From Muricauda sp. SCSIO 64092 (GTDB lineage Bacteria > Bacteroidota > Bacteroidia > Flavobacteriales > Flavobacteriaceae): DNA of 64,000 nucleotides. The notes beneath the pieces were generated by a model. That model made no database searches, was not told where the DNA came from, and worked only from the letters and a program-made list of their open reading frames with translations. Each line of letters begins with the position of its first letter. The stretch's first letter is position 1. Below are positions 4,320 through 54,906 of this stretch, in pieces. The DNA lies in the NCBI RefSeq assembly GCF_023016285.1, contig NZ_CP095413.1, forward strand, positions 2,852,001 to 2,916,000. The letters are read 5' to 3'. The translations under genes were made by a program, and so were the position numbers.

Positions 4320-5588
4320 ATGCCTGATTTAGTAATACGTGACAAAAAATACCTTTGGCATCCATTAACACAACACAAGACGGCCGCACCTCCACTTGCC
4401 ATTGTTAAAGCCAAGGGAGCCCGTATTTGGGATGACAGGGGTAAATCATATATAGATGGGATAGCATCTTGGTATTCAGCAATGTATGGTCATGGAAATG
4501 AGCACATCATTGCGGCAATGCACCAGCAGATGCAACAATTGGATTTTGTCATGTTCAGTGGTTTTACCCATGGGCCGGCAGTTGAACTTTCTGAAAAACT
4601 ATTGGCCATACTCCCGGATAATCAAAGGCGCATTTTTTTCAACGATAACGGTTCCACAGCTGTCGAGGCGGCCATTAAAATGGCACTTCAGTTCTTTTTC
4701 AATAAAGGTGAAAAAAGGGATACCCTTATTGCTTTTGAAAATGGTTTTCATGGAGATACGTTTGGAGCCATGAGCGCATCCGGACTTTCTTCCTATAATG
4801 GTCCTTTTGAGGATTTTTTGTTGAAGGTAGTGCGAATTCCAACACCCAAGGCAGACAATAGTGAGGCCCTCCTACGCGAGGTTGAAGGCATTTGTAAAGA
4901 ACATGCGGTGGCTGCTTTTGTCTTTGAGCCCTTGGTTCAAGGAGCGGCAGGGATGAAGTTTCACTCGGCACAAGGGTTGGATGCGCTGTTGGAATGTTTG
5001 CATAAGCATGATGTCCTTTGTATTGCGGACGAGATCATGACCGGCTTTGGAAAAACGGGAAGGAATTTTGCCAGTGATCACCTGGTACAAAAACCAGATA
5101 TCATTTGTTTGAGCAAAGCCCTTACCGCAGGGATGTTTCCCTTGAGTATCACCAGTGCAACGGAAGAGGTCTTTGCCGCTTTTTTAAGCGATAATGTGGC
5201 CAAAGGGTTTTTCCATGCCCATACCTACAGTGCCCACCCCATTGGTTGTGCGGCGGCTATAGCGGCAATGGATTTGCTTGCTTCTGAAAGCATTACGCAA
5301 AACATTGGCTGTATAGGACGATCCCACCAAGGGTTCAAATCAAAAATCGAACAACACCAAAAAGTAAGGGAAGTTCGTACCATGGGGGTCATCCTTGCTT
5401 TGGATTTGGAGGTGACAACAGACAGGTATGGGAGCCTAAGGGATAGGCTATATCAATTATTTTTGGATAGAGGGGTGGTACTAAGGCCTTTGGGAAATAC
5501 CATCTATGTACTCCCTCCCTACATCATAACGGAACAGGATCTGGCCTTGGTTTATAAGGCCATAGAAGAAGTATTGGAAATCGTTTAG
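4320..5588 (+). CDS. bioA: Adenosylmethionine-8-amino-7-oxononanoate aminotransferase
   Basis: This 422-residue class III aminotransferase makes 7,8-diaminopelargonic acid, normally with S-adenosylmethionine as amino donor. The N-terminal YLWHPLTQHK is characteristic of BioA. The cofactor site is seen in NDNGSTAVEAAIK (GS at 111-112), IADEIMTGFGKTG (D237) and CLSKALTAG (Schiff-base lysine K266). The following gene begins one base after its stop, so the two form an operon. It is the first gene of the downstream half of the biotin cluster, after an AT-rich 406-base gap. Confidence 0.95.
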   Translation: MPDLVIRDKKYLWHPLTQHKTAAPPLAIVKAKGARIWDDRGKSYIDGIASWYSAMYGHGNEHIIAAMHQQMQQLDFVMFSGFTHGPAVELSEKLLAILPDNQRRIFFNDNGSTAVEAAIKMALQFFFNKGEKRDTLIAFENGFHGDTFGAMSASGLSSYNGPFEDFLLKVVRIPTPKADNSEALLREVEGICKEHAVAAFVFEPLVQGAAGMKFHSAQGLDALLECLHKHDVLCIADEIMTGFGKTGRNFASDHLVQKPDIICLSKALTAGMFPLSITSATEEVFAAFLSDNVAKGFFHAHTYSAHPIGCAAAIAAMDLLASESITQNIGCIGRSHQGFKSKIEQHQKVREVRTMGVILALDLEVTTDRYGSLRDRLYQLFLDRGVVLRPLGNTIYVLPPYIITEQDLALVYKAIEEVLEIV

Positions 5589-41494: not shown

Positions 41495-41755
41495 ATGAAA
41501 ATCTCCGTAGAGCTTACCCTGACCCCATTACAGGATGATTTTGAACCCCCCATCATCAATTTCATTACAAAACTTCGGAACTCTGGATTAAGGGTTTTGG
41601 AAAATCCTTTGAGCACACAGGTTTACGGTCCTTATGATGCTGTAATGGCAATAGTTGCCCAAGAGATTAAAGTGGCTTTTGAAAATACGGATAAGGTGCT
41701 GTTATATATGAAAATCGTAAAGTCCGATCGAAGCGATTATGAGCCCCATTTTTGA
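41495..41755 (+). CDS. YkoF/MTH1187-type thiamine-binding protein
   Basis: This 86-residue protein is a single ferredoxin-like domain of the Thiamine_BP (PF01910, MTH1187/YkoF) family: KISVELTLTPLQDDF, FITKLRNSGLRVLENPLST and GPYDAVMAIVAQEI. In the family, such domains bind thiamine or its HMP moiety in the cytoplasm. It overlaps the PnuC start by 17 bases and heads a four-gene operon. No TPP riboswitch is visible upstream. Confidence 0.8.
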   Translation: MKISVELTLTPLQDDFEPPIINFITKLRNSGLRVLENPLSTQVYGPYDAVMAIVAQEIKVAFENTDKVLLYMKIVKSDRSDYEPHF

Positions 41756-42377
41756 TTTTTTTCTTGATGCCTATCGCGGGAAGGAAACCTATATTGTTAT
41801 TCTGGAAGCGATTGTTTTTGTATCAGGGATACTCAGCGTTTGGTTTGCGAAGCATGAAAACATTTGGGTGTATCCAACAGGGCTTTTGGCAACGGTGATT
41901 ACGGTGTATTTATTCCTAAAGGATGGACTCTTGGGAGATATGATGATGAATTTTTATTGGTCCGCCATGAGCATCTACGGGTGGTGGAACTGGTCAAGAA
42001 AAAAGGGGAACAGGACAATTGTCAAGATTTCAAGAACCACTGCCAGGGAAAAATGGATTGGATTGGGATTGTTCTTGGCAACCATGGGCTTTAATTATTT
42101 GGTTTATCGTCTCTTCGGTTATGAAATTTTGACTTCCAATTACATCGATATTTTTACGTCGGGACTGTTCTTTACGGCAATGTGGTATATGGCACTGAAG
42201 AAGTTGGAAAACTGGACCCTTTGGATTATCGCGGATGTTATTACCGTTCCACTTTATGCCTATAGGGGGTGGGGAATGTTGTCCTTTCAATATCTTATTT
42301 TTACGGTTTTGGCAATACAAGCATATGCTGCATGGAAGAGAAGCTTAAGCAACAGCCCTCAGACCTTATTAAGATAG
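41739..42377 (+). CDS. pnuC: PnuC-family transporter
   Basis: This 212-residue membrane protein matches PnuC: WFAKHENIWVYPTGLLATVI, MMNFYWSAMSIYGWWNW and LENWTLWIIADVITVPLYAY, with about seven membrane helices. PnuC-type transporters move nicotinamide riboside, or thiamine or riboflavin in relatives, by facilitated diffusion with metabolic trapping. The next gene, a NadR-type kinase, favours nicotinamide riboside, while the preceding gene favours thiamine; the substrate is therefore open. Confidence 0.9.
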   Translation: MSPIFDFFLDAYRGKETYIVILEAIVFVSGILSVWFAKHENIWVYPTGLLATVITVYLFLKDGLLGDMMMNFYWSAMSIYGWWNWSRKKGNRTIVKISRTTAREKWIGLGLFLATMGFNYLVYRLFGYEILTSNYIDIFTSGLFFTAMWYMALKKLENWTLWIIADVITVPLYAYRGWGMLSFQYLIFTVLAIQAYAAWKRSLSNSPQTLLR

Positions 42378-42898
42378 TCCTGTTTGGACCTGAATCGACC
42401 GGAAAAACTACTTTGGCAAAACAATTGGCCAAACATTACCATACCCATTGGGTCCCGGAATATGCCCGGGAATACCTTCAAAAAAAATGGTATGATGAGG
42501 GAAAGATTTGCGAACTGGAAGATCTTTTGCCCATAGCTAAGGGACAAATGGCCCTGGAGAACCAATTGGCCAAACGAGCCAATAAGATTCTTATATGCGA
42601 TACGGACCTATTGGTGACCAAGGTATATTCCGAAGCCTATTTTGATGATTTTTGTGATCCGCTCCTGGAGAAATATGCCCTTCAAAATACCTATGACCTT
42701 TATTTTTTGACTGGCATTGATGTACCATGGGTGCCAGATGACCTTAGGGATAGACCAAATGAGCGGGTGAAGATGCTTAACCTTTTCAAAACAGCTTTGG
42801 AGAAATATCAACGTACTTTTGTTATTTTAGAAGGTAATCAAGAAAAACGATTGGATACGGCCATTACCGAAACTGACAAACTGATGAACAATGATTGA
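42332..42898 (+). CDS. nadR: NadR-type ATPase/ribosylnicotinamide kinase
   Basis: This 188-residue P-loop kinase corresponds to the C-terminal kinase domain of NadR, without the nucleotidyltransferase or repressor parts. Walker A is GPESTGKTT (19-27), followed by WVPEYAREYL and CDTDLLVTKVYSE. It should phosphorylate the imported nucleoside to trap it. I place the start at MEEKLKQQ, giving a 46-base overlap with pnuC; an earlier ATG would overlap further without homology. Its stop overlaps the next gene by eight bases. Confidence 0.82.
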   Translation: MEEKLKQQPSDLIKIVLFGPESTGKTTLAKQLAKHYHTHWVPEYAREYLQKKWYDEGKICELEDLLPIAKGQMALENQLAKRANKILICDTDLLVTKVYSEAYFDDFCDPLLEKYALQNTYDLYFLTGIDVPWVPDDLRDRPNERVKMLNLFKTALEKYQRTFVILEGNQEKRLDTAITETDKLMNND

Positions 42899-49800: not shown

Positions 49801-49808
49801 TACTTTTG
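49801..49808 (+). promoter_or_regulatory. -7 box of the thiamine operon
   Basis: TACTTTTG matches TAnnTTTG, and transcription would begin about base 49815, just at the first paired bases of the riboswitch. The -33 position reads TATG and is weak. Confidence 0.45.
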
Positions 49809-49810
49809 GC

Positions 49811-49966
49811 GCATCTCAAAGGGGTGCTTTACCAAAGGAGGGGTTTTGAAAGATCAAACCGGAACAGTACGATTCTAAATTTCGACAATCAAAATTCCAA
49901 ATTCCGTAAGGCTGAGATTATACCCATTGAACCTGGGCAGGTAATGCTGCTAAGGGACCGAGCGTT
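49811..49966 (+). promoter_or_regulatory. TPP riboswitch (THI box)
   Basis: The conserved aptamer blocks appear in order: GGGGTGC (49821-49827), GCTGAGA (49910-49916), ACCC (49922-49925), GAACCTGGGCAGGTAATGC (49929-49947) and AGGGA (49953-49957). The P3 arm is unusually long and AT-rich (about 80 bases), which is allowed in the class. It should bind thiamine pyrophosphate and switch off the receptor-oxygenase-PnuT operon. A strong hairpin at 49969-50015 follows, without a T run. Confidence 0.93.
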
Positions 49967-50124
49967 GGGAAAATGTTCCATCCGTCCTGAGCTTCATCGA
50001 AGGATGGACATTTTCAACAAAGGACCAACTGCGCTGTTGGCGAAGTTACCTTTGAATTGGGTCGCTCAAAAAAATTAAGTGTAACCAGAATAATAGCCCC
50101 TTTTATTCGTAAAATTCTTTACGG

Positions 50125-52341
50125 ATGAAAACATCTATTTTCACAACACTGGCCCTGTGCAGCCTAGCGGTATCGCTCAACGCACAAAATCAACAACAGG
50201 ATACTACCCAAGGGACCAAAGTGGTTTTGGATGAGGTTTTGGTATCCGCAGTTAGGGTAACCAAAGAATCTCCGGTCACTTTCTCAGATTTGGACAAGGA
50301 AGAAATCGCCCCCCGAAACCTGGGGCAGGACATTCCCATTTTGATGAACTTTTTGCCTGCCGTGGTCACCACCTCCGATGCTGGAGCTGGTATTGGCTAT
50401 ACCGGAATACGGGTACGCGGAAGTGATGCCACCAGGGTCAACGTGACCATAAATGGAATCCCATATAATGATGCCGAATCACAAGGAACGTTTTGGGTGA
50501 ACATGCCGGATTTTGCTTCTTCCACCCAGAGTTTACAGTTGCAACGTGGTGTGGGAACATCCACCAATGGGGCAGGTGCTTTTGGAGCCAGCCTTAATAT
50601 GCTGACCGATGCTTTTTCCGAAGACGCTTATGGGCACATTTCCTCATCTTTCGGTAGCTTCAATACGTTAAGAAATAATATCAAATTCAGCACGGGTTTA
50701 ATGAATGACCATGTTGAACTTTCTGGGCGGTTATCACGCATTACTTCTGATGGCTATATAGACAGGGCTTCCGCAGAATTGGACTCCTATTTCCTACAAG
50801 GGGTCTACAAGGATGATAATACTTTGGTAAAAGCACTCTTGTTTGGGGGGCACGAAATTACGTATCAAGCTTGGTATGGAACCCCTTTGGCAAGAATAAA
50901 CAATGACGAAGAAGGCATTGAACAGTTTATTGTAGACAATGGACTTACCGAAGAACAAGCTGAAAATCTGAGGAATTCAGATAGACGATACAACTTCTAT
51001 ACTTATGAGAATGAGGTGGACAATTACAAACAAGACCATTTTCAACTGCATTGGAACGAACAACTGGATGCCAATTGGAACACCAATATAGCCTTACATT
51101 ACACTAAAGGAAGGGGCTTTTTTGAGCAGTTTCGGGAAGATGACGATTTTGAAACCTATGGTTTTGAACCCTTGGTTGTAAATGGGGAAGAGGTCAATAC
51201 TACGGATTTGATTCGTAGAAGATGGCTGGACAATGACTTTTATGGAACCGTCTTTTCGGCAAATTATCAAGATGAAAACTTGCAGTTGATCTTGGGCGGA
51301 GGATACAATATCTACAAAGGCGATCATTTTGGCGAGGTCATTTGGGCGCGTTTTGCCAATAACAGTGAATATCGAGATCGGTATTATGACGATACTTCCA
51401 CAAAGACCGATCTAAACCTCTACTCAAAGGCCATCTATAAATTGAATGACCAATGGAGCCTTTTTGGAGATCTTCAATACCGAACTGTGGGTTATGAGGC
51501 CAATGGGGAGGATACCGGCTTGGTAGACGACACCTTTAATTTTTTCAATCCAAAAGCAGGGCTCACATTTGACCTTAATAAAAACAACAACTTTTACTTT
51601 TCTTATGCCCGTGCAAATAGGGAACCCAATCGTAACGATTATGAAAATGGAAATCCCAGGCCAGAAAGGCTTAATGATTTTGAATTGGGTTGGCGTTATA
51701 TCAATCCGTCCGTTCAGTTGAATACCAATGTGTATTATATGCGTTATAAGGACCAATTGGTCCTTACAGGTGAATTAAATGATGTTGGAGCTCCATTGCG
51801 GGCCAATGTTGGGGACAGTTACCGATTGGGATTGGAGATAGACGCCAGATTTTCCCTGGGCAATAAATGGTTTTTACAGCCCAATGTTGCGTTGAGCAGC
51901 AACAAAAACATTGACTTTATCTTTCAGCGAGATGGTGAAATCCAGAATTTGGGCAATACCAATATTGCCTATTCGCCAAATGTGGTGGCTGGCAATATTT
52001 TGGGATACATGCCCCATGCCAATTGGCAATTTTCCCTATTGTCCAAATACGTTAGTGAGCAATATATGGGCAATATAGATGCTGAAGGTTCCATTTTGGA
52101 AGCCTATTCCCAAACGGATTTAAACATTCAATATACCTGGCAGGCCAACTCATTTATCAAGAGTATCGTATTCTCAGGTCTGGTGAACAATATTTTTGAT
52201 CAAGACATTGTGTCCAATGGCTTTTTCTTCACTTTTGATGACGATTCTATTAACCCGGGTACCGTAACCACAGTGGAAGGAGCTGGATTTTATCCCCAGG
52301 CTGGGATTAACTTTTTGTTGGGAGCAACTGTAAACTTTTAA
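50125..52341 (+). CDS. TonB-dependent receptor for thiamine (OMR1 type)
   Basis: This 738-residue receptor has signal peptide MKTSIFTTLALCSLAVSLNA and no regulatory domain; the plug begins directly with VVLDEVLVSAVRVTKESPVT and continues with GYTGIRVRGSDATRVNVTIN. The barrel ends in GINFLLGATVNF. A TPP riboswitch upstream and a PnuT-type transporter downstream place it as the outer-membrane thiamine receptor described for Bacteroidota. The next gene starts nine bases after its stop. Confidence 0.92.
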   Translation: MKTSIFTTLALCSLAVSLNAQNQQQDTTQGTKVVLDEVLVSAVRVTKESPVTFSDLDKEEIAPRNLGQDIPILMNFLPAVVTTSDAGAGIGYTGIRVRGSDATRVNVTINGIPYNDAESQGTFWVNMPDFASSTQSLQLQRGVGTSTNGAGAFGASLNMLTDAFSEDAYGHISSSFGSFNTLRNNIKFSTGLMNDHVELSGRLSRITSDGYIDRASAELDSYFLQGVYKDDNTLVKALLFGGHEITYQAWYGTPLARINNDEEGIEQFIVDNGLTEEQAENLRNSDRRYNFYTYENEVDNYKQDHFQLHWNEQLDANWNTNIALHYTKGRGFFEQFREDDDFETYGFEPLVVNGEEVNTTDLIRRRWLDNDFYGTVFSANYQDENLQLILGGGYNIYKGDHFGEVIWARFANNSEYRDRYYDDTSTKTDLNLYSKAIYKLNDQWSLFGDLQYRTVGYEANGEDTGLVDDTFNFFNPKAGLTFDLNKNNNFYFSYARANREPNRNDYENGNPRPERLNDFELGWRYINPSVQLNTNVYYMRYKDQLVLTGELNDVGAPLRANVGDSYRLGLEIDARFSLGNKWFLQPNVALSSNKNIDFIFQRDGEIQNLGNTNIAYSPNVVAGNILGYMPHANWQFSLLSKYVSEQYMGNIDAEGSILEAYSQTDLNIQYTWQANSFIKSIVFSGLVNNIFDQDIVSNGFFFTFDDDSINPGTVTTVEGAGFYPQAGINFLLGATVNF

Positions 52342-52350
52342 ATAAAAGGG

Positions 52351-53127
52351 ATGTTGGACCAGGTTAAACTTGAAATAGATGAATATGGTTTGGTAAGGAC
52401 CAACATCCCGGTATTTTCAGATATTGAACTAAGAGCGGCACTCGTTACATTTGTTAAACGAACTTGGGATTATCGTAAGACCTACTTGCAAAAAGAATTA
52501 AAAGTCGCTTTTGATGGATATTCTTACCTCGGACAAGAAGATAGTCTTAACCAGTATTCCTTTGATCAGTTACATTCTTTTGTTATTTCCGACCTCTTAC
52601 CATATTCCAGTTTTCCAAAAGAATTCCATACGTTTCTTTTGCAAGAATGGGAACCAATGGTTCAGTTTTTGACAGGACTGCAAGAATTGCTTTTAAGAAA
52701 ATTTAATATAGAGCACTTAAAAGGAGAGTTACGTAATAATATGGGCTATATGGCCAGTTGCAACTATTATCCTTCATTGTCCGATAAAAAAATAAAAGGT
52801 CAGCGTCTGTCCACTCATAGAGATGTTTCGTTTTTTACGGTTTTTCCATTTGGCCTAGATCGGGGATTAGTTATGCAAAAGGATGGCCAAAAACAAAATG
52901 TGGGAGTAATGGAAAGGGTTTTTGCGTTTCCCGGATATATGGCAGAGGTTATGACAGAAGGCAAGATAAAGGCATTGGACCACTATGTAGAAGAATCAAA
53001 AAGACCAAACAAGGAACGGTTTAGTTTTGCATTTTTCTCAATACCTAGACCTGAAGCCGTCATTAACTTCCCAAAAGGCGAGATGGATGGGAAGGACTAT
53101 TACAAGCAATACCTTTCACTTTTTTAA
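52351..53127 (+). CDS. Isopenicillin-N-synthase-like Fe(II)/2-oxoglutarate oxygenase
   Basis: This 258-residue protein has the complete motif series of the IPNS/2-oxoglutarate oxygenase superfamily: NYYP (138-141), the iron ligands H156 and D158 in THRDVSFFTVFPFG, distal H211 in ALDHYVEE, and RFS (R223, S225) for the co-substrate carboxylate. FAFPGYMAEVMTEGKIKALD corresponds to the Gd-xxE-xxTnG segment. It lies nine bases after the receptor and before the PnuT-type gene, under the TPP riboswitch. Its substrate is probably thiamine-related, which is inference; I know of no characterised enzyme with this context. Confidence 0.85.
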   Translation: MLDQVKLEIDEYGLVRTNIPVFSDIELRAALVTFVKRTWDYRKTYLQKELKVAFDGYSYLGQEDSLNQYSFDQLHSFVISDLLPYSSFPKEFHTFLLQEWEPMVQFLTGLQELLLRKFNIEHLKGELRNNMGYMASCNYYPSLSDKKIKGQRLSTHRDVSFFTVFPFGLDRGLVMQKDGQKQNVGVMERVFAFPGYMAEVMTEGKIKALDHYVEESKRPNKERFSFAFFSIPRPEAVINFPKGEMDGKDYYKQYLSLF

Positions 53128-53140
53128 TCATACATTTATT

Positions 53141-53707
53141 TTGGATTTAGGTATTGAAATTGCATCCATAGCCCTGGCCTTGACCTATCTTTTCTTTTTA
53201 ATGCGGCAAAATAAAATCTGTTGGTTTTTTGGTATTGCCTCTTCACTTTTGGGCATTGTCCTCTTTTACAAAACTGCCCTTTATTCTGAAGCCTTGTTGT
53301 ATGTCTACTACGTCATCATTGGGATATATGGATATATATTATGGTCAAAAAAAAGGGATAGGGAAGCACTTAGTGTTACTTGGTTAAAATCAAGGCCCCT
53401 ATTAATTTTTCTGGGGTTAAGTATTATTGGTGGCCTTGTCCTGGGCTTTTGGTTCAAAAACTACACCAATGCTGACTTACCCTATTTTGATGCTTTTACC
53501 ACTTCATTTAGTTTCATGGCCAGTTATTTAGAGGCTAAAAAGTATATTAACGCTTGGGTGTTTTGGATATTCATTAATGGGGCCAATATTGCACTTTATG
53601 GGACAAAGTTGCTCTATGGTTATGCTATATTGGCGTTTATCTATTTTGTTTTCTCTGTAATTGGATATGTGCAGTGGAAGAAATCGTATCAACTTAAATT
53701 CCATTGA
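53141..53707 (+). CDS. pnuT: PnuT-type thiamine transporter (PnuC family)
   Basis: This 189-residue membrane protein is of the PnuC family (NKICWFFGIASSLLGIVLFY, VYYVIIGIYGYILWSKK, INAWVFWIFINGANIALYGT) with about seven helices. Under a TPP riboswitch with a TonB receptor it fits PnuT, the inner-membrane thiamine transporter. The start is uncertain: TTG 53141 avoids overlap with the oxygenase gene, while ATG 53087 would overlap it by 41 bases. The thiamine kinase that often accompanies PnuT in Bacteroidota is absent here. Confidence 0.87.
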   Translation: MDLGIEIASIALALTYLFFLMRQNKICWFFGIASSLLGIVLFYKTALYSEALLYVYYVIIGIYGYILWSKKRDREALSVTWLKSRPLLIFLGLSIIGGLVLGFWFKNYTNADLPYFDAFTTSFSFMASYLEAKKYINAWVFWIFINGANIALYGTKLLYGYAILAFIYFVFSVIGYVQWKKSYQLKFH

Positions 53708-53843
53708 GGCCCTATTTTATTTTGCGCTACCTTAATTTTTTGATGAATCGGAAGAAATAACCCCCGGAGCACAGCCCTTGGCATACCATTGGTGTAGTTC
53801 TCCTGGTCAATTTCATTGGTTAAGGGTTTTCCTTGAGATTGCC

Positions 53844-53867
53844 ATTCCCATGAAAATGGGAATTTTT
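53844..53867 (+). terminator. Terminator of the thiamine operon
   Basis: ATTCCCAT (53844-53851) and ATGGGAAT (53856-53863) form an eight-base stem with loop GAAA, followed by TTTT. It lies between the PnuT-type gene and the oxidoreductase gene. Confidence 0.75.
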
Positions 53868-53916: not shown

Positions 53917-54906
53917 ATGGAACCTTTCTTTACCAAGAAACCTATCCGCTGGGGGATTATAGGTTGTGGCAATGTGACCGAAGTAAAAAGTGGACCACCC
54001 TATCAAATGACCCAAGATTTTGAATTGGCCATGGTAATGCGACGGGATGATGGGAAGGCCAAGGATTATGCCATCCGCCATAAGGTGCCCCATTGGACTA
54101 CGGATGCCGGGGAAGTCATTGAAAACCCTGGGATTGACGCGGTGTATATTGCGACTCCCCCGGACACCCATAAGTTTTATGGCCTGCAAGTGGCAAGGGC
54201 AGGGAAACTGTGCTGTATCGAAAAACCGATGTCCCCCTGTTATGCAGATAGCCTGGAAATTTACAATGCTTTTCAGGAAAGGAATATCCTCTTGTTTGTT
54301 GCCTACTATCGCAGGTCCCTTCCAAGGTTCCGCAAAATAAAGGAATGGCTGGACTTAGGATTGATAGGCGAAGTACGGCACATCCATTGGGTAAAAACGA
54401 GGACCGCAAGTCCCTTAGATCTGAGCGGTGAATACAATTGGCGCACCGATGCCAAAATTGCCCCCGCCGGTTATTTTGATGATTTGGCCAGTCATGGATT
54501 GAACCTTTTTACCTATTTACTTGGGGATATTACGGAAGCAAAAGGGATTGCCTCTAATCAGCAGGGATTGTACACGGCTTTTGATGCCATCACGGGAAGT
54601 TGGAAACATAAGAACGGGGCAACCGGTTCCGGCAGTTGGAATTTTGGAAGCCACGAGCCCAAAGATCATGTGGAAATCTTGGGTTCCAAAGGGGAGATTC
54701 GGTTCTCGGTTTTGGATGAATCCCCGTTGGAATTGATTTACGGCTCAAATAGGGAGTCCGTTTTTATTGAACATCCCAAACATTTACACCAGTATCATGT
54801 GGAAAATATGCGCAAGCAATTGTTTGGGGAGGCAAAACATCCTTCTTTGGGCAGTTCAGGCCTGCATACCAGTTGGGTGATGGACAAAATATTGGGAGTG
54901 ATCTAA
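53917..54906 (+). CDS. Gfo/Idh/MocA family oxidoreductase
   Basis: This 329-residue NAD(P)-dependent enzyme has the Rossmann start RWGIIGCGNVTEVKSGPPYQ, the family motif CIEKPMSP (EKP around 103-105) and a C-terminal beta sheet with GYFDDLASHGLNLFTYLLGD. It probably oxidises or reduces a sugar or inositol derivative. It is monocistronic, behind the terminator at 53844, and meets the next gene tail to tail with a four-base overlap. Confidence 0.9.
   Translation: MEPFFTKKPIRWGIIGCGNVTEVKSGPPYQMTQDFELAMVMRRDDGKAKDYAIRHKVPHWTTDAGEVIENPGIDAVYIATPPDTHKFYGLQVARAGKLCCIEKPMSPCYADSLEIYNAFQERNILLFVAYYRRSLPRFRKIKEWLDLGLIGEVRHIHWVKTRTASPLDLSGEYNWRTDAKIAPAGYFDDLASHGLNLFTYLLGDITEAKGIASNQQGLYTAFDAITGSWKHKNGATGSGSWNFGSHEPKDHVEILGSKGEIRFSVLDESPLELIYGSNRESVFIEHPKHLHQYHVENMRKQLFGEAKHPSLGSSGLHTSWVMDKILGVI

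Follow-up and report, generated by a model that had tools for sequence, protein, structure and literature searches.

An oxygenase–transporter gene pair behind a divergent TPP riboswitch in a flavobacterium, a possible vitamin-salvage module

A 64,000-nucleotide stretch of the Muricauda sp. SCSIO 64092 genome (hereafter the window), which is part of one 5.69 Mb contig with Flavobacteriaceae as closest named relatives, carries an operon that reads, on the plus strand, thiamine pyrophosphate (TPP) riboswitch match, TonB-dependent receptor, Fe(II)/2-oxoglutarate oxygenase-type protein (OXY), PnuC-family transporter (PnuT) and terminator-like hairpin. We propose, with a probability of roughly 45%, that OXY and PnuT make up a mobile two-gene vitamin-salvage module in which PnuT would import a thiamine-related compound and OXY would oxidise it to a usable or trapped form. 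Vitamin B1 and the products of its breakdown influence which microbes are able to grow in the sea, and the presence of OXY in a riboswitch-controlled B1 uptake operon of some marine bacteria hints at a new oxygen-dependent salvage step. If our proposal is true, a conserved oxygenase–transporter pair under thiamine control would be a sign of a salvage reaction that requires oxygen and of a vitamer pool so far uncounted.

The layout of the operon is more than chance and the observation is real. The receptor, an OMthi-like outer-membrane protein of 738 residues (50125..52341, plus strand), matches Pfam PF00593 (88.7 bits) and PF07715 (33.7 bits), both above cut-off, and is 74.8% identical to its Maribacter antarcticus counterpart. 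Nine bases separate its stop from the start of OXY (52351..53127, plus strand, 258 residues), so that Pfam matches and coordinates bear out the receptor and the spacing claimed in an earlier note on this DNA, which had been written from the letters alone. PnuT follows (53141..53707, plus strand), with a TTG start set by homology: the open reading frame list began it at the TTG at 53027, overlapping OXY, and comparison with homologues moved the start to the TTG at 53141, 13 bases past the OXY stop. A hairpin and a T-rich stretch lie after the last gene, as had been noted (53844..53863, plus strand; consensus match only), but the terminator scan returned 11 such sites in the window against 6.6 expected in shuffles, and the hairpin taken alone is weak evidence.

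A covariance-model scan of 501 bases against all Rfam families placed a divergent TPP aptamer (RF00059), whose P3 region is enlarged by about 75 bases, at 49810..49974 on the plus strand (37.3 bits, E 8.8e-6, model positions 1-105). This score is below the curated Rfam gathering score of 54.3 bits, and a scan of the whole window at the gathering threshold reported no TPP riboswitch. We nevertheless judge the element to be real because the core motif, which is complete in the window leader (CTGAGA...ACCC...GAACCTG...), precedes the syntenic receptor in 24/24 relatives' loci that hold the receptor in the stretch (25 loci examined). The further elements that were scored before the same receptor are all under the cut-off (44.7, 46.7, 44.8, 43.4, 37.2, 36.2, 36.7, 35.9 and 28.3 bits), the last and weakest being that of locus L016 (E 0.15). 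The minimum-energy fold of the RNA leader (z -2.49) did not recover the canonical aptamer and was not used as evidence. What the earlier note called a clear TPP riboswitch is thus a full-length, significant match with an intact core that is kept in relatives.

By family, motif and modelled fold, OXY is a putative Fe(II)/2-oxoglutarate oxygenase, and its dependence on 2-oxoglutarate is predicted. It matches PF03171 with 31.0 bits (cut-off 23), and residues H156, D158, H211, R223, S225 and N138/Y140/P141 are invariant in 79 aligned family members (19 from the loci described below and 60 of the 120 matches listed of 238 clusters), in keeping with the complete isopenicillin N synthase/2-oxoglutarate oxygenase-type protein seen initially. 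We take HxD...H to be the iron triad and RxS the 2-oxoglutarate-binding motif. The structure model (predicted local distance difference test score, pLDDT, 95.0) has double-stranded beta-helix oxygenases as its nearest folds, and thymine 7-hydroxylase, thebaine 6-O-demethylase and isopenicillin N synthase, which share this fold, are also PDB profile matches. The fold search gives no substrate hint, since dozens of oxygenases tie: thymine dioxygenase is among the tied best, as are many enzymes acting on other substrates.

The OXY family is rare (238 clusters among 5.8 billion proteins) and patchy, occurring in 8/397 genomes of the window's bacterial family and in 1/395 of a phylum sample, the window genome being counted in both. 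Such a distribution would suit a protective enzyme that destroys or alters a toxic thiamine analogue, for example methoxy-thiamine from bacimethrin, entering by the thiamine uptake route. The pair's own transporter, however, would raise the import of the toxin; moreover, TPP riboswitches usually lower expression when thiamine is plentiful, and such a fall fits salvage better than defence. We consider protection the most improbable of the readings weighed here. Carriage of OXY on plasmids was also considered and is rejected, as 72,556 plasmid records gave no match.

The partner of OXY is a transporter of one PnuC subfamily. Among 19 Bacteroidota loci, each genome counted once (the window, G056, G012, G480 and 15 from named contigs), OXY directly adjoins a PnuC-family gene in 18, of which 15 pairs are co-directional with OXY first and three are divergent (L014, L015, L030); in L018 just the first 40 transporter residues are present at the contig end. 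In the exception, L031, OXY lies 379 bases from the end of the contig, and a transporter of this subfamily is encoded on a different contig of the genome (L079). The window protein itself matches PF04973 with 161 bits (cut-off 27.3), which confirms the PnuC-family neighbour of the earlier note and, with the other loci, turns it into a kept pairing. On a tree built from 63 proteins of the PnuC family, the 17 full-length transporters encoded next to OXY cluster together, requiring one gain (support 90/57; 88% of bootstrap trees), and together with L077 and L079 they make up a starred group with support 95/98; the usual flavobacterial PnuC, encoded beside a NadR-like AAA_28 gene, sits elsewhere on the tree. 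The subfamily is present in 18/18 Bacteroidota genomes with OXY (G061 being counted from a fragment) vs 1/39 without it (G042; Fisher p 6e-14, kinship ignored), and distances among the OXY proteins correlate with those among their PnuT partners (r 0.71, 17 pairs, 0/2000 permutations as high, kinship again ignored). Given the adjacency to the same transporter subfamily, the link of OXY to the transporter is better evidenced than its link to the riboswitch. The three divergent pairs leave about 0-20 bases between the likely starts, as read by eye, too little for ordinary promoters.

Comparison with sister genomes reveals a gene exchange at the place of the pair. G003 and G007, both without an OXY match, align to the window from 41 to 58 kb at 93-96% nucleotide identity with short gaps (blastn; loci L118 and L119). 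The alignment stops at 52342, one base past the receptor stop, and restarts at 53938, so that the plus-strand segment 52343..53937 is missing from both sisters. Between these breakpoints each sister holds instead a 302-residue gene of the NMT1/THI5 family, for which no obvious signal peptide was seen by eye. This THI5/ThiY-family gene lies in the TPP operon at 7382-8290 of L118, 7087-7995 of L119, 11078-11986 of L120 and 7234-8142 of L122. The PDB matches of the sister protein are 4nmy, 3ix1, which binds N-formyl-4-amino-5-aminomethyl-2-methylpyrimidine (FAMP), THI5 and THI13; in a phmmer alignment to 4h6d it holds a serine in the column of the yeast THI5 histidine, which we take to be the active-site His66. 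Pyrimidine-vitamer proteins of the THI5 and ThiY types thus occupy the same slot behind the receptor while belonging to a fold family unrelated to OXY-PnuT.

The THI5-like slot gene also occurs in the genus members G005, G008, G004 and G009; altogether it is present in 6/24 loci that have the receptor and lack OXY, all in the window's genus, and was not found in the other 18. The only NMT1-family match of the window genome (49.5 bits) is over the Pfam cut-off and fits another binding-protein type better. In Maribacter antarcticus, receptor, OXY, PnuT and a THI5-like gene stand in a row, so the order of events could have been either replacement or insertion then loss. The G+C contents of OXY (37.2%) and PnuT (36.0%) are lower than the mean of 42.9% (standard deviation 3.0) for the 39 window open reading frames of at least 200 residues, as expected of acquired DNA. 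The THI5/ThiY-like gene appears to be the one whose place OXY-PnuT took.

The earlier note had instead let the oxygenase take the place of a thiamine pyrophosphokinase. The window operon holds no gene for this kinase and the window genome gave no match to it, but the canonical enzyme is rare either way, in 5/18 Bacteroidota genomes with OXY vs 4/39 without. As it is also rare in relatives that lack OXY, OXY does not stand in for it, and with a THI5/ThiY-like gene rather than a kinase holding the slot in the sisters we reject this replacement. The wider idea, that thiamine salvage involves an uncharacterised oxygenase, outlives the kinase argument in a changed form, as an OXY-PnuT module that likely handles a thiamine-related compound.

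How far the pair is tied to thiamine differs among its loci. It lies behind the receptor in 8/19 Bacteroidota loci from several genera (window, L016, L020, L021, L024, L025, L026, L032), and a TPP match lies upstream in seven of these eight, the last, L020, being cut off by the contig start; the TPP linkage proposed from the window alone is thereby supported. The share of homologues behind a TPP-linked receptor, on which the earlier note had meant its thiamine role to be judged, is accordingly 8/19, or 8/22 with three Gammaproteobacterial relatives included. Most homologues are therefore outside thiamine operons, yet those of Bacteroidota stay, with the single exception given above, beside the same transporter subfamily. 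In seven genomes that have the pair elsewhere (G056, G060, G061, G065, G066, G071, G073), a TPP match lies ahead of a TonB receptor that OXY-PnuT does not accompany; in G062 a THI5-like gene follows the TonB receptor, and the genome search reported no TPP match. To account for the receptor-linked arrangement, the OXY tree, few of whose branches are starred, needs three changes (1/500 shuffles as low), and we rejected a single origin.

Several of these observations weigh against the salvage module. In Bacteroidota, 11 of the 19 pairs lie outside TPP-receptor operons, and no TPP match was found in the six free-standing pair loci scanned directly (L014, L015, L017, L018, L022, L028). All linked loci but the cut-off L020 share one chromosomal place, so that co-regulation could descend from few insertions, and the low G+C of the pair fits a recent arrival, which would have left little time for adaptation in the window lineage. 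The thiamine link is weaker outside Bacteroidota: the three Gammaproteobacterial OXY relatives have no PnuT linkage, and the Francisella OXY genes (L029, L053) have AraC-type regulators rather than a vitamin transporter as neighbours. Cysteiniphilum speaks instead for the link: a broken OXY lies there behind a PQ-loop transporter with 38% identity to one that directly follows a TPP riboswitch in Francisella sp. SYW-9, although the scan of the Cysteiniphilum locus (L033) found no TPP match. The SYW-9 riboswitch (L054, 5439-5534, minus strand) stands directly before its PQ-loop transporter gene (4745-5404, minus strand), possibly a thiamine transporter family.

The pair could also be read, given the loci where it lies elsewhere, as handling another compound, nucleoside-like or nicotinamide-related for example, with the place in the thiamine operon being a neutral insertion in a variable slot. 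Known PnuC relatives do carry nicotinamide riboside (4qtn), and the patchy occurrence of the THI5-like gene behind the receptor marks the slot as variable. Against this, the alternative occupant of the slot comes from a thiamine-pyrimidine family, and the order receptor-OXY-PnuT persists across eight loci from several genera. The PnuC of L081, encoded between a TPP-receptor gene and a kinase gene, also shares a side of the tree with the OXY-linked transporters, although the support (96/73) is modest and the branch long (2.18). We regard a cargo unrelated to thiamine as unlikely, while giving it more weight than any other alternative.

Which thiamine-related compound the proposed module would handle depends on the biosynthetic genes that accompany it. 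Among OXY-bearing genomes, ThiC was found in 4/20, the canonical kinase in 7/20 and ThiE over cut-off in 8/21 (any ThiE match, 11/21); the 18 of Bacteroidota include two with ThiC, five with the kinase and five with ThiE, and nine show no kinase and no ThiE over cut-off. Several of these genomes are incomplete metagenome bins, G480 (100%), G056 (99%) and G064 (same contig as G027, 99%) not being among them. If OXY serves salvage in genomes that lack ThiE, it should yield a thiamine-like molecule that is intact, since a free pyrimidine could not be joined to the thiazole there by the known route. For the window genome, whose ThiE match lies behind a second TPP riboswitch and which gave no match to ThiC or the kinase, a pyrimidine substrate is equally possible. 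This mixed ThiE picture is why we speak of a thiamine-related compound and leave the exact vitamer unnamed. The second riboswitch (L036, G000:C1:1412000-1422000) scores 65.6 bits at 1417461-1417549 on the minus strand, and behind it lie genes for a methyltransferase, an AIRS/ThiL-like protein and a ThiE-like protein and a short open reading frame of 129 codons.

Under a pyrimidine-branch alternative, OXY would hydroxylate a pyrimidine vitamer, for instance at the 5-methyl of 4-amino-2,5-dimethylpyrimidine, in the way that thymine is hydroxylated by thymine 7-hydroxylase, and so yield hydroxymethylpyrimidine (HMP) for ThiE. The window genome, with ThiE and neither ThiC nor kinase, needs a source of HMP, and Maribacter antarcticus has adjoining matches to PF02110 (ThiM), PF02581 (ThiE) and PF03070 (TenA) with no ThiC match. 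The sister slot gene belongs to the THI5/FAMP-binding family, and the best folds tied for OXY include that of thymine dioxygenase, although that tie takes in many enzymes with other substrates. ThiE over cut-off is, however, lacking in 13/18 Bacteroidota genomes with OXY (three of them with weak partial matches), to which HMP would be useless by this route, and we give this alternative a small chance.

For the salvage module we envisage that, at low TPP, the receptor would carry the vitamer over the outer membrane and PnuT over the inner membrane, and that cytosolic OXY, acting as an Fe(II)/2-oxoglutarate oxygenase, would hydroxylate it. That a thiamine vitamer is the cargo, that OXY acts on it and which group is oxidised we infer; hydroxylation or demethylation at a methyl or alkyl group would be the likeliest chemistry. 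The oxidised vitamer would enter the thiamine pool or stay trapped in the cell, as PnuC-type transporters probably depend on a reaction that traps their cargo. In the window lineage, the module would have come under thiamine control by settling in the slot held by the THI5/ThiY-like gene in the sisters. More tentatively still, OXY may be the first oxygenase of vitamin B1 salvage, making usable thiamine from a methylated or otherwise unusable vitamer brought in by PnuT, and the pair may be a portable cassette that spreads between bacteria and is able to displace a THI5/ThiY-like gene.

A thiamine uptake operon of gut Bacteroidetes, presumably reported by Costliow and Degnan, offers a point of comparison. 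According to the portion of the report available to us (PMC5613172), it comprises a TPP riboswitch, OMthi, pnuT and tnr3, and the role of PnuT is described. The window operon likewise brings together a TPP riboswitch, a TonB receptor and a PnuC-family transporter; unlike that operon, as far as this portion details it, the window operon has no kinase gene, an oxygenase between receptor and transporter, and a transporter of the separate OXY-linked subfamily. A second parallel is the 2-oxoglutarate dioxygenase MgdH of a guanidine-riboswitch operon, which, in the available part of PMC12508155, hydroxylates methylguanidine as a step of its demethylation. OXY resembles MgdH in being a 2-oxoglutarate-type oxygenase that is encoded in a riboswitch operon and could supply the pathway of the riboswitch ligand; the likeness drawn here is one of operon setting, and the OXY operon differs from what that part describes in its ligand and in that no lyase partner was seen.

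Vitamin breakdown products do occur at sea: FAMP and 4-amino-5-aminomethyl-2-methylpyrimidine (AmMP) were measured in sea water and in a culture of Pibocella, which the authors count with Flavobacteria (PMC10470507, in the part available). Among the open-licence PMC papers listed, judged by titles and abstract openings, none reported an oxygenase of the OXY kind in thiamine loci. PMC9870897, taken up as a source on TPP riboswitch, TonB receptor and NMT1 in flavobacteria, was set aside, since its available part concerns an algal gene.

The other PnuC type of these genomes has a partner of its own. At 41739-42886 of the window, as in 25/25 relatives' loci (L118-L142), a PnuC gene adjoins a NadR-like gene of the AAA_28 kinase fold; these loci were chosen for holding the AAA_28-adjacent PnuC, and the two genes lie upstream of the TPP-receptor in all 24 with the receptor in the stretch. 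AAA_28 is also kept near a TonB receptor in three genomes that have the OXY-type PnuC and no other (L055, L021, L079). With canonical thiamine pyrophosphokinase in just 9/57 genomes, AAA_28 is a candidate for a missing thiamine kinase.

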